This document shows positions 19,303 to 39,470 of a stretch of 64,000 nucleotides of DNA, in pieces. Below the pieces are notes generated by a model, which ran no database searches, had not been told where the DNA came from, and worked only from the letters and a program-made list of their open reading frames with translations. The number at the start of each line of letters is the position of its first letter. Position 1 is the first letter of the stretch. A program made the translations under genes and the position numbers. Source of the stretch: Pelagibacterium sp. 26DY04 (GTDB lineage: Bacteria > Pseudomonadota > Alphaproteobacteria > Rhizobiales > Devosiaceae); the NCBI RefSeq assembly GCF_031202305.1, contig NZ_CP101731.1:2542001-2606000 (forward strand). Reading direction: 5' to 3'.

Positions 19303-19863
19303 CTACATCCCCTGCGGGCCGCGCGTGATCGCGGCAAGTCCGGTGCGCACCACCTCGACCAGCCCCAGCGGCACCATCAGCGCCACGAACTGTTCAACCT
19401 TGCTCGACTTGCCCGTGATCTCGAAAACGAAGCTTTCTGTCGTCGCATCGATCACCTGCGCGCGGAACGCATCGGCCAGCCGCAGCGCTTCCACGCGATT
19501 GTCGCCGGCCCCGGCGACCTTCACCAGAGCCAGCTCGCGCTCGATGGCGTTACCTTCCTGGGTCAGATCGTGAACCTTATGCACCGGCACCAGCCGCTCG
19601 AGCTGCAGCTTGATCTGCGCCAGCACCTTGGGCGTCGCCACCGTCACCACGGTGATCCGCGACCGGTGTTTGTCGTGCTCGGTCTCGGAAACCGTGAGCG
19701 AGTCAATATTGAACCCGCGCGCCGAAAACAGTCCCACCACCCTGGCTAGAACCCCCGGCTCGTTATCGACAAGCACCGTCAACGTATGACGTTCTTCGGC
19801 TTCCGTCTGCGACGGCATGAAATAGACCGACCCGGTCGGCAGCAAATTGGCGTTCATGTTCAT
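19303..19863 (-). CDS. ilvN: acetolactate synthase small (regulatory) subunit
   Basis: The 186-residue subunit activates the IlvB catalytic subunit and gives feedback inhibition by valine. The N-terminal ACT domain reads HTLTVLVDNEPGVLARVVGLFSARGFNIDSLTV, with the Gly and Asn residues that contact the effector; the C-terminal IlvN_C domain follows with VAGAGDNRVEALRLADAFRAQVIDATTESFVFEITG. The start MNMNANLLPTGS is preceded by GAGGAC; the second Met is equally possible. It lies 440 bases downstream of ilvB on the same strand, with repeats between. Confidence 0.96.
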   Translation of the reverse strand: MNMNANLLPTGSVYFMPSQTEAEERHTLTVLVDNEPGVLARVVGLFSARGFNIDSLTVSETEHDKHRSRITVVTVATPKVLAQIKLQLERLVPVHKVHDLTQEGNAIERELALVKVAGAGDNRVEALRLADAFRAQVIDATTESFVFEITGKSSKVEQFVALMVPLGLVEVVRTGLAAITRGPQGM

Positions 19864-19917
19864 TGTCCTCAAATCCTCTTCCCGGCATCGACGCCGGCTC
19901 ATCTTGCACGCTCTGCC

Positions 19918-19974
19918 CCCCCTCATCCGACCTCCGTTTCACTCCGGCCACCTTCTCCCACCAGGGGAGAAGGG
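19918..19974. repeat. REP-like intergenic palindrome between ilvB and ilvN
   Basis: The stretch runs from CCCTCATCCGACCTCCG to the hairpin CTTCTCCCACCAGGGGAGAAG. This is a form of the CCTCATCC...GGGGAGAAGG element frequent in Rhizobiales. Confidence 0.6.
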
Positions 19975-20302: not shown

Positions 20303-22072
20303 TCAAACCAGCACCTTCCCCTTCTCATCGATAATATTCCCAATATCTGCCGTATCGGGCAGGATCATCTCGTTATGCGGCTTGCCCGATGGGATCATGG
20401 GGAAGCAGTTCTCTTCCTTGCTCACCAGGCAGTCGAAGATCACCGGCTTTCTGATGTTGATCATCTCGTCGATTGCATCGTCGAGCTTGGCAGGGTCGGA
20501 ACACCTGATCCCGTGCCCGCCATAAGCCTCGGCAAGCTTCACGAAATCGGGCAAGGCATCGGAATAGGAGTGCGAATAGCGCCCGCCATGCAGCAATTCC
20601 TGCCACTGGCGCACCATGCCCATATATTCGTTGTTCAGAATGAAGATCTTGACCGGCAGCTCGTACTGTAGCGCCGTACTCATCTCCTGCATGGTCATCT
20701 GCACTGAGGCTTCCCCGGCGATATCGATCACCAGCGCATCGGGATGGGCCACCTGCACCCCGATCGAAGCCGGCAGTCCATATCCCATCGTGCCCAGCCC
20801 GCCCGAGGTCATCCACCTATTGGGCTGATCGAAATGGAAATGCTGCGCCGCCCACATCTGGTGCTGGCCCACCTCGGTCGTGATGTAGACGTCACGATCC
20901 TTGGTGGCCTGGTAAAGCCTTTGGATCGCGTGCTGGGGCTTGATGATCGTATCGGAGTTGGTGAACCCGAGCGAATTGACGCTCTGCCACTTCTCGATCG
21001 CCTTCCACCACGGCGCTATCGCCTCGGTGCGCGGCTGGTTGGTCTTGGCCCGCCAGATACGGATCATCTCTTCCATCACGTGGTTGACGTCACCGATGAT
21101 CGGGATGTCGACGATGATGTTCTTGTTGATCGAAGAGGGGTCGATATCGACATGGATCTTGCGGCTGTTGGGTGAAAACGCGTCGATCCGGCCGGTGATC
21201 CGGTCGTCGAACCGCGCGCCCAGACAGATCATCAGGTCGCAATCGTGCATGGCCATGTTGGCTTCATAGGTGCCGTGCATGCCCAGCATGCCCAGCCATT
21301 GCTTGCCACTGGCCGGATAGGCGCCCAGCCCCATCAACGTCGAGGTCACCGGAAAGCCGGTCAATTCCGCCAGCTCGCGCAGATTGCGGCTCGCTTCCGG
21401 CCCTGAATTGATGATCCCGCCTCCGGTATAGAACACCGGCCGTTCGGCGCGCAGCATCAGGTCCACGGCAACCCGGATGGCCTCCATGTCGCCCTCGATC
21501 TGCGGCTTGTAGGTGGGGTGGCTGGGCTCGCTCTGGGGCTTGAAATATTTGCCCACCGCGAACTGGATGTCCTTGGGAATATCGATCACCACCGGCCCCG
21601 GCCGCCCCGAGGTCGCGATATAGAACGCTTCGTGCAGGATGCGCGGCAGATCCTCGATCGATTTGACCAGGTAGTTGTGCTTGGTGCAGTTGCGGGTAAT
21701 CCCGACCGTATCGCACTCCTGGAAGGCGTCCGAACCGATCAGCGGGGTCGCGACCTGCCCGGAAATGCAGACCAGCGGGATCGAGTCGAGCAGCGCATCG
21801 GCCAGCCCGGTCACCGCATTGGTCGCGCCCGGCCCCGAGGTCACCAGCACCACGCCGCACTTGCCGGTCGAGCGGGCATAGCCCTCGGCCATATGCGTCG
21901 CGCCCTGCTCGTGGCGGACGAGGATGTGCTGGACCTTGTCCTGCTGGAAGATCGCATCATAGATCGGCAGCACCGCGCCACCGGGGTATCCGAAGATGTG
22001 TTCGACCCCCTGATCCATCAGCGCTCTCACAACCATTTCGGCGCCGGTCATCTGTTCGGCCATTTCAGCCAC
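20303..22072 (-). CDS. ilvB: acetolactate synthase large (catalytic) subunit
   Basis: This 589-residue thiamine-diphosphate enzyme makes acetolactate and acetohydroxybutyrate from pyruvate, the first common step to valine, leucine and isoleucine. Glu55 in LVRHEQGATHMAEGYAR is the catalytic glutamate that activates the cofactor. The middle FAD-contact domain includes MLGMHGTYEANMAMHDCDLMICLGARFDDR, and the C-terminal diphosphate motif is GEASVQMTMQEMSTA...FILNN. Expression is probably set by the attenuator and leader peptide immediately upstream. The short gap to ilvN contains repeats but no T-run terminator that I can see, so cotranscription is possible. Confidence 0.97.
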   Translation of the reverse strand: MAEMAEQMTGAEMVVRALMDQGVEHIFGYPGGAVLPIYDAIFQQDKVQHILVRHEQGATHMAEGYARSTGKCGVVLVTSGPGATNAVTGLADALLDSIPLVCISGQVATPLIGSDAFQECDTVGITRNCTKHNYLVKSIEDLPRILHEAFYIATSGRPGPVVIDIPKDIQFAVGKYFKPQSEPSHPTYKPQIEGDMEAIRVAVDLMLRAERPVFYTGGGIINSGPEASRNLRELAELTGFPVTSTLMGLGAYPASGKQWLGMLGMHGTYEANMAMHDCDLMICLGARFDDRITGRIDAFSPNSRKIHVDIDPSSINKNIIVDIPIIGDVNHVMEEMIRIWRAKTNQPRTEAIAPWWKAIEKWQSVNSLGFTNSDTIIKPQHAIQRLYQATKDRDVYITTEVGQHQMWAAQHFHFDQPNRWMTSGGLGTMGYGLPASIGVQVAHPDALVIDIAGEASVQMTMQEMSTALQYELPVKIFILNNEYMGMVRQWQELLHGGRYSHSYSDALPDFVKLAEAYGGHGIRCSDPAKLDDAIDEMINIRKPVIFDCLVSKEENCFPMIPSGKPHNEMILPDTADIGNIIDEKGKVLV

Positions 22073-22118
22073 TCCCCTACTGTCCTACTTTTCTCCGCCA
22101 CCGGCGGAATTTGGATAA

Positions 22119-22142
22119 TAAAAAAGGCCCCGTTAGGGACCT
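22119..22142 (-). terminator. attenuator terminator before ilvB
   Basis: On the minus strand AGGTCCC-TAAC-GGGGCCT (7 bp with one G-U pair) is followed by six T and ends 47 bases before the ilvB start. It lies between the leader peptide and the structural gene, where premature termination would occur. Confidence 0.85.
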
Positions 22143-22148
22143 GTCTTC

Positions 22149-22198
22149 GGCGCACCGCAATTCGCACGAGGGTTATTCCCTCATGTTGCGATGCGCCT
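22149..22198 (-). promoter_or_regulatory. alternative RNA stem of the ilvB attenuator
   Basis: GGCGCATCGCAA, inside the leader coding sequence just after the Val-Val codons, pairs with TTGCGGTGCGCC over 12 positions with one G-U pair. Between them is GAGGG-N5-CCCTC. The AGGGA of that small hairpin could alternatively pair with TCCCT of the terminator arm, giving a candidate antiterminator. Confidence 0.6.
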
Positions 22199-22228
22199 GC
22201 CTACTACAAGAATAAGTGCCGTCTTCAC
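22181..22228 (-). CDS. ilvB leader peptide MKTALILVVGRRIAT
   Basis: A 15-codon GTG frame encodes MKTALILVVGRRIAT, with five consecutive codons for Leu-Ile-Leu-Val-Val, exactly the amino acids whose synthesis ilvB starts. GGAG lies 7 bases before the GTG, a good promoter is placed about 20 bases further up, and an RNA stem plus T-run terminator lie between it and ilvB. This is the layout of classical amino-acid attenuation: ribosomes stalled at scarce Leu, Ile or Val tRNAs would change folding and let RNA polymerase continue. The peptide itself is not expected to have another function. Confidence 0.88.
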   Translation of the reverse strand: MKTALILVVGRRIAT

Positions 22229-22253
22229 GGAGCTTCTCCAAAATTTCGCACCA

Positions 22254-22282
22254 TTGGTACCGCCGGGTACGCCCTCGGTCAA
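22254..22282 (-). promoter_or_regulatory. promoter of the ilvB leader
   Basis: TTGACC (22277-22282) and TACCAA (22254-22259), read on the minus strand, are 17 bases apart and would start transcription about 20 bases before the leader peptide GTG. Confidence 0.6.
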
Positions 22283-39033: not shown

Positions 39034-39139
39034 GACTCATTCAATACCGTGATTCTGCCCGTTCAATACGCGCAACATCGCATCAACTCACCGCTATTTG
39101 GACAATGTGTTGGAGCCCCTTTTCATCGGGGCGCGGGGT

Positions 39140-39470
39140 CCCTATATTGGGCGTGCCGGCAACGGCTATGGCGATAAACTGTCATCGTAATAAACCCATC
39201 GGACCCGGGGGCAGTACCCGGCGCCTCCACCAAATTCCTCCCTGATTTCAGGGACTTGCGGGGGCGAAACAGGATCGACGAGGGCGTAAAAGGTGTGCTT
39301 TCGCTCGGCATTGTACCACCGTTATCGGGCTACAATTATAGTTGCCAACGACAACTATGCTGAGGCACGTCTCGCTGCGTAATGCAGCGCGATACCTCGA
39401 ATTAAAGCCCTGATTCTGTAGCAGGAATCAGGCGGGGTCCGCAGGCACCTGGCAACAGAAGCCTGCATTT
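39140..39470 (+). ncRNA. ssrA: tmRNA, permuted two-piece form
   Basis: tmRNA rescues stalled ribosomes and tags the nascent protein. Here the acceptor part comes first: T-arm CCGGG-GGCAGTA-CCCGG then CGCCTCCACCA, ending at 39232. After a 27-base spacer the coding part begins at 39260 with GGGGGCG, which pairs with CGCCTCC to rebuild the tRNA acceptor stem, and continues GAAACAGGATCGACG. The tag frame GCC...TAA at 39344-39382 encodes ANDNYAEARLAA. Hairpins CCTGATTC-N8-GAATCAGG and GCAGGC...GCCTGC follow. The outer ends are approximate. This permutation is characteristic of alphaproteobacteria. Confidence 0.94.

Follow-up and report, generated by a model that had tools for sequence, protein, structure and literature searches.

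A probable leader-peptide attenuator of ilvB in Pelagibacterium sp. 26DY04 and its relatives in the RF02502 (Atu_C8) family

Does the DNA preceding ilvB in Pelagibacterium sp. 26DY04 encode a complete transcription attenuator, and if so, which amino acids would it sense and which other genes does it accompany? A first-pass annotation of the stretch of 64,000 nucleotides analysed here (the window) had proposed such an attenuator, and when the letters were rechecked, the −35/−10 pair, GGAG site, 15-codon GTG leader, 12-bp outer stem and 7-bp terminator with six T were all recovered on the minus strand where it had placed them (Table 1). A revision is required for its ‘small second hairpin’, which had been described as a separate unit: the respective helix extends the outer stem to yield a single 20-bp hairpin with a 4-nt bulge. 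The complete leader reads GTG AAG ACG GCA CTT ATT CTT GTA GTA GGC AGG CGC ATC GCA ACA TGA; its last control codon ends 4 nt upstream of the hairpin, and its stop codon sits in the inner 5' arm of the hairpin. Translation of ilvB was called from a GTG at 22072, and the ATG at 22063, located 56 nt past the T-run, is the likelier start.

Table 1. Features of the ilvB leader region in the window, and loci of transporter-linked copies in other genomes
Feature	Position	Strand	Details
Promoter	22254..22282	(-)	-35 TTGACC 22282-22277; 17-nt spacer; -10 TACCAA 22259-22254
Ribosome site GGAG	22236..22239	(-)	7 nt upstream of leader GTG
Leader ORF MKTALILVVGRRIAT	22181..22228	(-)	15 codons; GTG start; TGA stop
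Control codons CTT ATT CTT GTA GTA	22216-22202	(-)	within leader ORF MKTALILVVGRRIAT
20-bp hairpin	22149..22197	(-)	loop AATAA; 4-nt bulge; from fold, outer stem covariation in relatives
Hairpin outer stem	22197-22186 with 22160-22149	(-)	12 bp
Hairpin inner stem	22185-22178 with 22172-22165	(-)	
Intrinsic terminator	22120..22142	(-)	AGGTCCC-TAAC-GGGGCCT 22142-22125; then six T, 22125-22120
RF02502 (Atu_C8) match	22110..22229	(-)	79.4 bits; gathering score 50
ilvB, acetolactate synthase large subunit	20303..22072	(-)	NCBIfam PRK09107, 1146 bits; TIGR00118; Pfam TPP domains
ilvN/ilvH, acetolactate synthase small subunit	19303..19926	(-)	NCBIfam PRK11895; downstream of ilvB
Transporter-linked copies			L008, L019-L022, L025, L031, L033, L035, L036, L051-L058, L060, L063, L065-L067, L071, L085

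Folding of the region 22245-22110 yielded a z-score of −6.25, with none of 200 shuffled sequences folding equally well. A terminator scan of the window element found one terminator vs. 0.7 (sd 0.8) in shuffled sequences, which is weak when taken alone, and a scan of the element region for a strict consensus promoter found none. Since neither the terminator nor the promoter exceeds chance in such simple scans, the case for both rests on comparison. The pattern TTGACC-17 nt-TAC(C/G)(A/T)AT is present in all 13 ilvB copies from the same genus and in all five divergent copies from another genus of the family, and a ribosome site is likewise found upstream of many leaders in the family of elements.

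The window element matches RF02502 over the full length of the model (positions 1-122 of 122; E 3.7e-15 in the window search), and the gathering score is thereby exceeded over the whole model. A single match was found in the Pelagibacterium sp. 26DY04 genome; searching the same genome for other copies with our own model returned nine weaker matches (E 0.013 and up), the best three of which seem to be ordinary gene-end terminators. Elsewhere in the window, positions 39116-39469 constitute an alphaproteobacterial tmRNA gene (RF01849, 292.8 bits). RF02502 matches were obtained in 217 of 397 genomes from the order (72 above the Rfam cut-off), in 121 of 136 genomes of one family, which we take to be Devosiaceae (90 above the cut-off; the named records closest to its transporter-linked copies are Devosia), and in none of 14 control genomes. 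An IlvB protein search located ilvB in 126 of the 136 genomes of this family, 118 of which have an RF02502 match somewhere; the eight others are five in one genus, G451, whose ilvB match starts at a contig end, and G403 and G509, the latter two being left out. Upstream of ilvB in the five genomes of one genus stands a divergent element (31.9-36.1 bits with our own model R1) sharing the layout of promoter boxes and spacing, ORF (such as MHQALVLVIIGTGGANI), hairpin and terminator. Having been found via the IlvB protein, these five elements are free of the sequence bias of the RF02502 model. In a class-wide sample of 289 genomes, model R1 matched four: Pelagibacterium sp. 26DY04, a further two from its order, and G617 from outside the order, where the element precedes a transporter. 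Since this search scored 14 candidates per genome, whereas a genome may yield up to several thousand, a lack of matches beyond the order says little. No match to the leader region of the window turned up in the plasmid collection; in a Sinorhizobium meliloti plasmid record, an acetolactate synthase is annotated downstream of an element that itself bears no annotation.

The gene context of 153 copies supports the proposed assignment to ilvB: 126 precede ilvB, 25 precede a Bcr/CflA-like MFS transporter, and two remain without a call (a contig end and a weak hit), while codons and stems are conserved. The 153 copies comprise 53 loci fetched automatically and 100 hits picked from the listed matches in favour of high scores and second copies, so that 126:25 is not a natural frequency; the duplicate loci L037, L039 and L079 were excluded. 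A tandem arrangement element-ilvB-ilvN-element-ilvB, with the element and ilvB copies ∼2.7 kb apart, occurs at L049 and L050 (G260 and G306), and two RF02502 matches at similar spacing are present in G320. One of the 126 (L032 in G023) precedes a divergent ilvB paralogue which is 59.7% identical to that of the window and has the leader MKIAMVLAVVIGRMGRMV.

Leaders were analysed in 68 copies sharing less than 80% identity, which were left after dereplication of the 151 of 153 copies that have a recognised terminator where one is expected; the leader start was picked by a rule blind to amino acids. A leader ORF with its stop inside the hairpin is present in 67 of the 68 (start codons: 58 ATG and 9 GTG); the exception, L120, obtains a leader under a looser rule. 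Of the 532 in-frame codons upstream of the stem, 310 (58%) encode Leu, Ile or Val vs. 92 (17%) and 28 (5%) of 532 in the other frames, and 65 of 67 leaders contain a run of at least three, a conservation that is inflated to some extent because all relatives but the five found via protein were found with a model including leader letters. The first-pass annotation had named Leu/Ile/Val codons and compensatory stem changes in relatives as the features to look for, and the former are indeed kept across the order with synonymous changes: third codon positions vary and the amino acid is kept. Codon choice is likewise distinctive. Of 141 leader Val codons, 62% are GTA, whereas the downstream genes use it for 2.4% of their 2519 Val codons and 24 long ORFs of the window for 3.2%; ATT (63% vs. 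18%) and CTT (51% vs. 10%) are likewise raised in the leaders. The geometry is also narrowly confined, with the last control codon starting 6-8 nt upstream of the stem in 47 of 67 leaders, and with the stop codon in, or at most 3 nt from, the hairpin loop in 60 of 67. The element thus possesses one feature of amino-acid attenuators, a short leader ORF in which control codons for the amino acids of the pathway are clustered. One might argue that the leader is constitutive and that its terminator merely lowers ilvB expression with no sensing; such a scenario leaves unexplained the conserved Leu/Ile/Val run, the use of GTA and the narrow spacing between control codons and stem.

Compensatory changes were found in both the outer stem and the terminator. 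In 68 aligned sequences, 92.4% of the cells of these stems are paired vs. 80.2% after shuffling, and changes on both sides of a pair number 114 vs. 30.7 (none of 500 shuffles as high), affecting 11 of 14 pairs vs. 8.0 (5 of 500 shuffles as high). The covariation score is 0.452 vs. at most 0.141 when the structure is slid along the alignment, a comparison which favours the unslid structure as it was derived from the alignment on which it was scored. Within the outer stem, the first four pairs are nearly fixed (same in 62-68 of 68), and the remaining pairs covary. Another feature of amino-acid attenuators is the intrinsic terminator that separates the leader from the structural gene, recognised as stated above; a third is a hairpin past the control codons, which a stalled ribosome would be expected to disturb. 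Promoter boxes, leader, control codons, hairpin, terminator and the place before ilvB are hence all evident from sequence and comparison.

Taken together, the window element very probably controls ilvB(N) by ribosome-mediated transcription attenuation. RNA polymerase would start at the conserved promoter and a ribosome would translate the 15-codon leader. When charged Leu-, Ile- and Val-tRNA are plentiful, the ribosome would proceed to the stop codon within the hairpin, and most transcripts would end at the terminator, near 22120; when tRNAs are uncharged, Val above all, it would stall on LILVV and cover the base of the outer stem, and altered folding would allow the polymerase to read on into ilvB. 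Stall, read-through and, above all, an alternative fold blocking the terminator are steps which we infer. For an assumed footprint of 16 nt, a ribosome halted at the Val codons would cover the stem base, and one halted at the stop codon would cover the inner 5' arm. The earlier statement that the leader senses all three branched-chain amino acids is a fair one, as Leu, Ile and Val all occur in the run of 117 of the 126 ilvB copies (all ilvB copies counted, with a rule choosing the longest run). The three might be unequal in weight: the same assumed footprint suggests that a ribosome stalled at either Val codon would reach the hairpin, and one stalled earlier would not.

How would the terminator be blocked? 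Swapped partners, shuffles and ribosome-footprint folding in 67-68 members revealed no conserved antiterminator, and minimum-energy folds at several ribosome edges in 16 members contained no conserved candidate among the folds listed. Pairing of the hairpin halves with the terminator 5' arm of their own element is no better than with the arms of other members (fraction of permutations at least as strong as the own pairing: 0.63 for the 5' half and 1.0 for the 3' half), with the terminator 3' arm serving as the positive control (0 of 5000 permutations as strong); since the terminator 5' arm varies little, the antiterminator tests are of low power. The outer arms of the hairpin pair with the terminator 5' arm worse than shuffled sequences, and the last 14 nt of the inner 5' arm do so no better than shuffled ones (mean Z −0.09). 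Footprint folding of 67 members yielded 0.49 for the stalled ribosome vs. 0.48 for the ribosome at the stop codon, with stalled exceeding stop in 28 of 67; the corresponding values for the window sequence are 0.09 with no ribosome, 0.55 at the last Val codon and 0.20 at the stop codon. The likeliest partner of the terminator 5' arm is probably the inner 5' arm, because it is G-rich (G exceeds C in 54 of 68 members and falls below C in 4 of 68) and because, when the stretch from hairpin to terminator is divided into tenths, the best helix formed with the terminator 5' arm falls within tenths three to five in 42 of 67. These negative antiterminator tests speak for the constitutive leader, which in view of the codon and spacing data we nevertheless regard as highly improbable; they also are the reason why our confidence in attenuation, high as it is, stops short of certainty. 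The locus thus raises a question of mechanism, that is, how a terminator gets blocked without a visible conserved antiterminator.

A second rival reading starts from Rfam, where RF02502 is named ‘Rhizobiales sRNA’ and typed ‘Gene; sRNA’: the terminated leader of ∼120 nt might be the functional product, acting in trans as a stand-alone small RNA, with the peptide being incidental. Apart from the Rfam typing, precedent comes from the Sinorhizobium trp attenuator, which according to PMC10117765 yields both a functional small RNA and a peptide (rnTrpL and peTrpL). A role in cis is indicated, though, by 151 of 153 copies standing before ilvB or one transporter family, by codon conservation in frame and by the use of rare codons, so that the stand-alone small RNA appears very unlikely; a role in trans may exist on top of the one in cis. 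Neither the Rfam name nor the type includes a leader ORF, attenuation or a link to ilvB, and in this they differ from attenuation as proposed here.

The transporter-linked copies are second copies, 20 of them in Devosiaceae and five in a family taken to be Rhizobiaceae; none is present in the 26DY04 genome. Among the 20, the run is Val-only in 16, and judged by eye the −10 box is so near the ATG that the leaders look leaderless. Between the element and the transporter start, which was assigned by rule, there are 22-59 nt, and of three transporters scanned, one scores above the NCBI cut-off for TIGR00710 while the other two do not reach it. A transporter at ≥69% identity is encoded in 23 of the 136 Devosiaceae genomes, with an R1 element before it that is strong in 20 (53-72 bits) and weak in G422 (28 bits); none was found in G421, and the locus fetched for G406 is short, probably due to a contig end. 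Around more distant transporters (seven loci, 61-44% identity), R1 detected nothing above 21.3 bits. The best 80 named transporter relatives include eight with the element (two Devosia, three Rhizobium, one Mesorhizobium and two ‘Rhizobiales’). A plasmid search with a transporter-linked query, which favours that kind, yielded 17 matches, 12 of which are by coordinates just upstream of such a transporter; the remaining five include Sinorhizobium meliloti (before acetolactate synthase) and Shinella (unannotated there).

Outside the order, a genome (L235 in G617) carries an element scoring 98.8 bits to RF02502 and 76.7 bits to R1 before an MFS transporter 64% identical to one from Devosiaceae (L020), and judging from these sequences, element and gene are likely a transferred unit. 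For hand-picked sets, the Devosiaceae transporter-linked elements exhibit mean identities of 0.67 and 0.63 to the transporter- and ilvB-linked copies of Rhizobiaceae, and of 0.55 to the ilvB copies of Devosiaceae; being closer to Rhizobiaceae than to the ilvB copies of their own family hints at transfer of the unit of element and transporter. On balance, we lean slightly towards RF02502 being primarily a family of branched-chain amino-acid attenuators with two targets: an ilvB copy sensing all three amino acids, and a second copy, Val-only in most Devosiaceae members and inherited or transferred with its gene, which would control a Bcr/CflA-like MFS transporter not only in Rhizobiaceae and Devosiaceae but also in at least one genome outside the order. 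If true, a transporter annotated as ‘drug efflux’ would be part of the handling of valine or branched-chain amino acids (or an analogue) and would be switched on at valine shortage. For an uncharacterised MFS group, the transporter-linked copies are a regulatory clue as to what is transported.

The literature searched, which did not extend to the original Atu_C8 paper, yielded no identification of Atu_C8 as an ilvB attenuator, and the literature matches listed, with most subscription papers outside their scope, no link of the element to an MFS transporter. Likewise, the Rhizobiales and Agrobacterium sRNA papers searched contain no passage of this kind in connection with ilv, acetolactate or a leader peptide. 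The sole mention of RF02502 found there is as one of 40 sRNA benchmark families, in PMC5913331, and its label as an sRNA in that benchmark would be questionable if the family is an attenuator. Our analysis offers a function for a library entry labelled merely ‘sRNA’, as well as a leader ORF for a type of ilvB locus for which the one annotated record examined shows none.

Among known systems, a different phylum provides the ilvBNC attenuator of Corynebacterium with its uORF, which by description shares pathway and logic with the window element. Another is the trp attenuator (trpL) of Sinorhizobium meliloti, from the same order: it combines a leader ORF with an attenuator as the window element does, and its leaderless start resembles the MFS-linked copies, whereas its Trp codons, its target trpE and its functional small RNA and peptide, as reported in PMC10117765, set it apart. 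A further group are the ilvB attenuators of alphaproteobacteria, which can be compared via citing passages. An ilvB leader peptide in this class was described before (PMC1273637, citing Vitreschak 2004), and the Caulobacter ilvBN leader is portrayed as having tandem Ile and Val codons, ribosome pausing and a rho-independent terminator (PMC4117421, citing Tarleton 1994). As in the window, a leader peptide precedes ilvB in these systems. According to these passages, ilvB attenuators are already known in alphaproteobacteria, and it is this group that the element of Pelagibacterium sp. 26DY04 joins.
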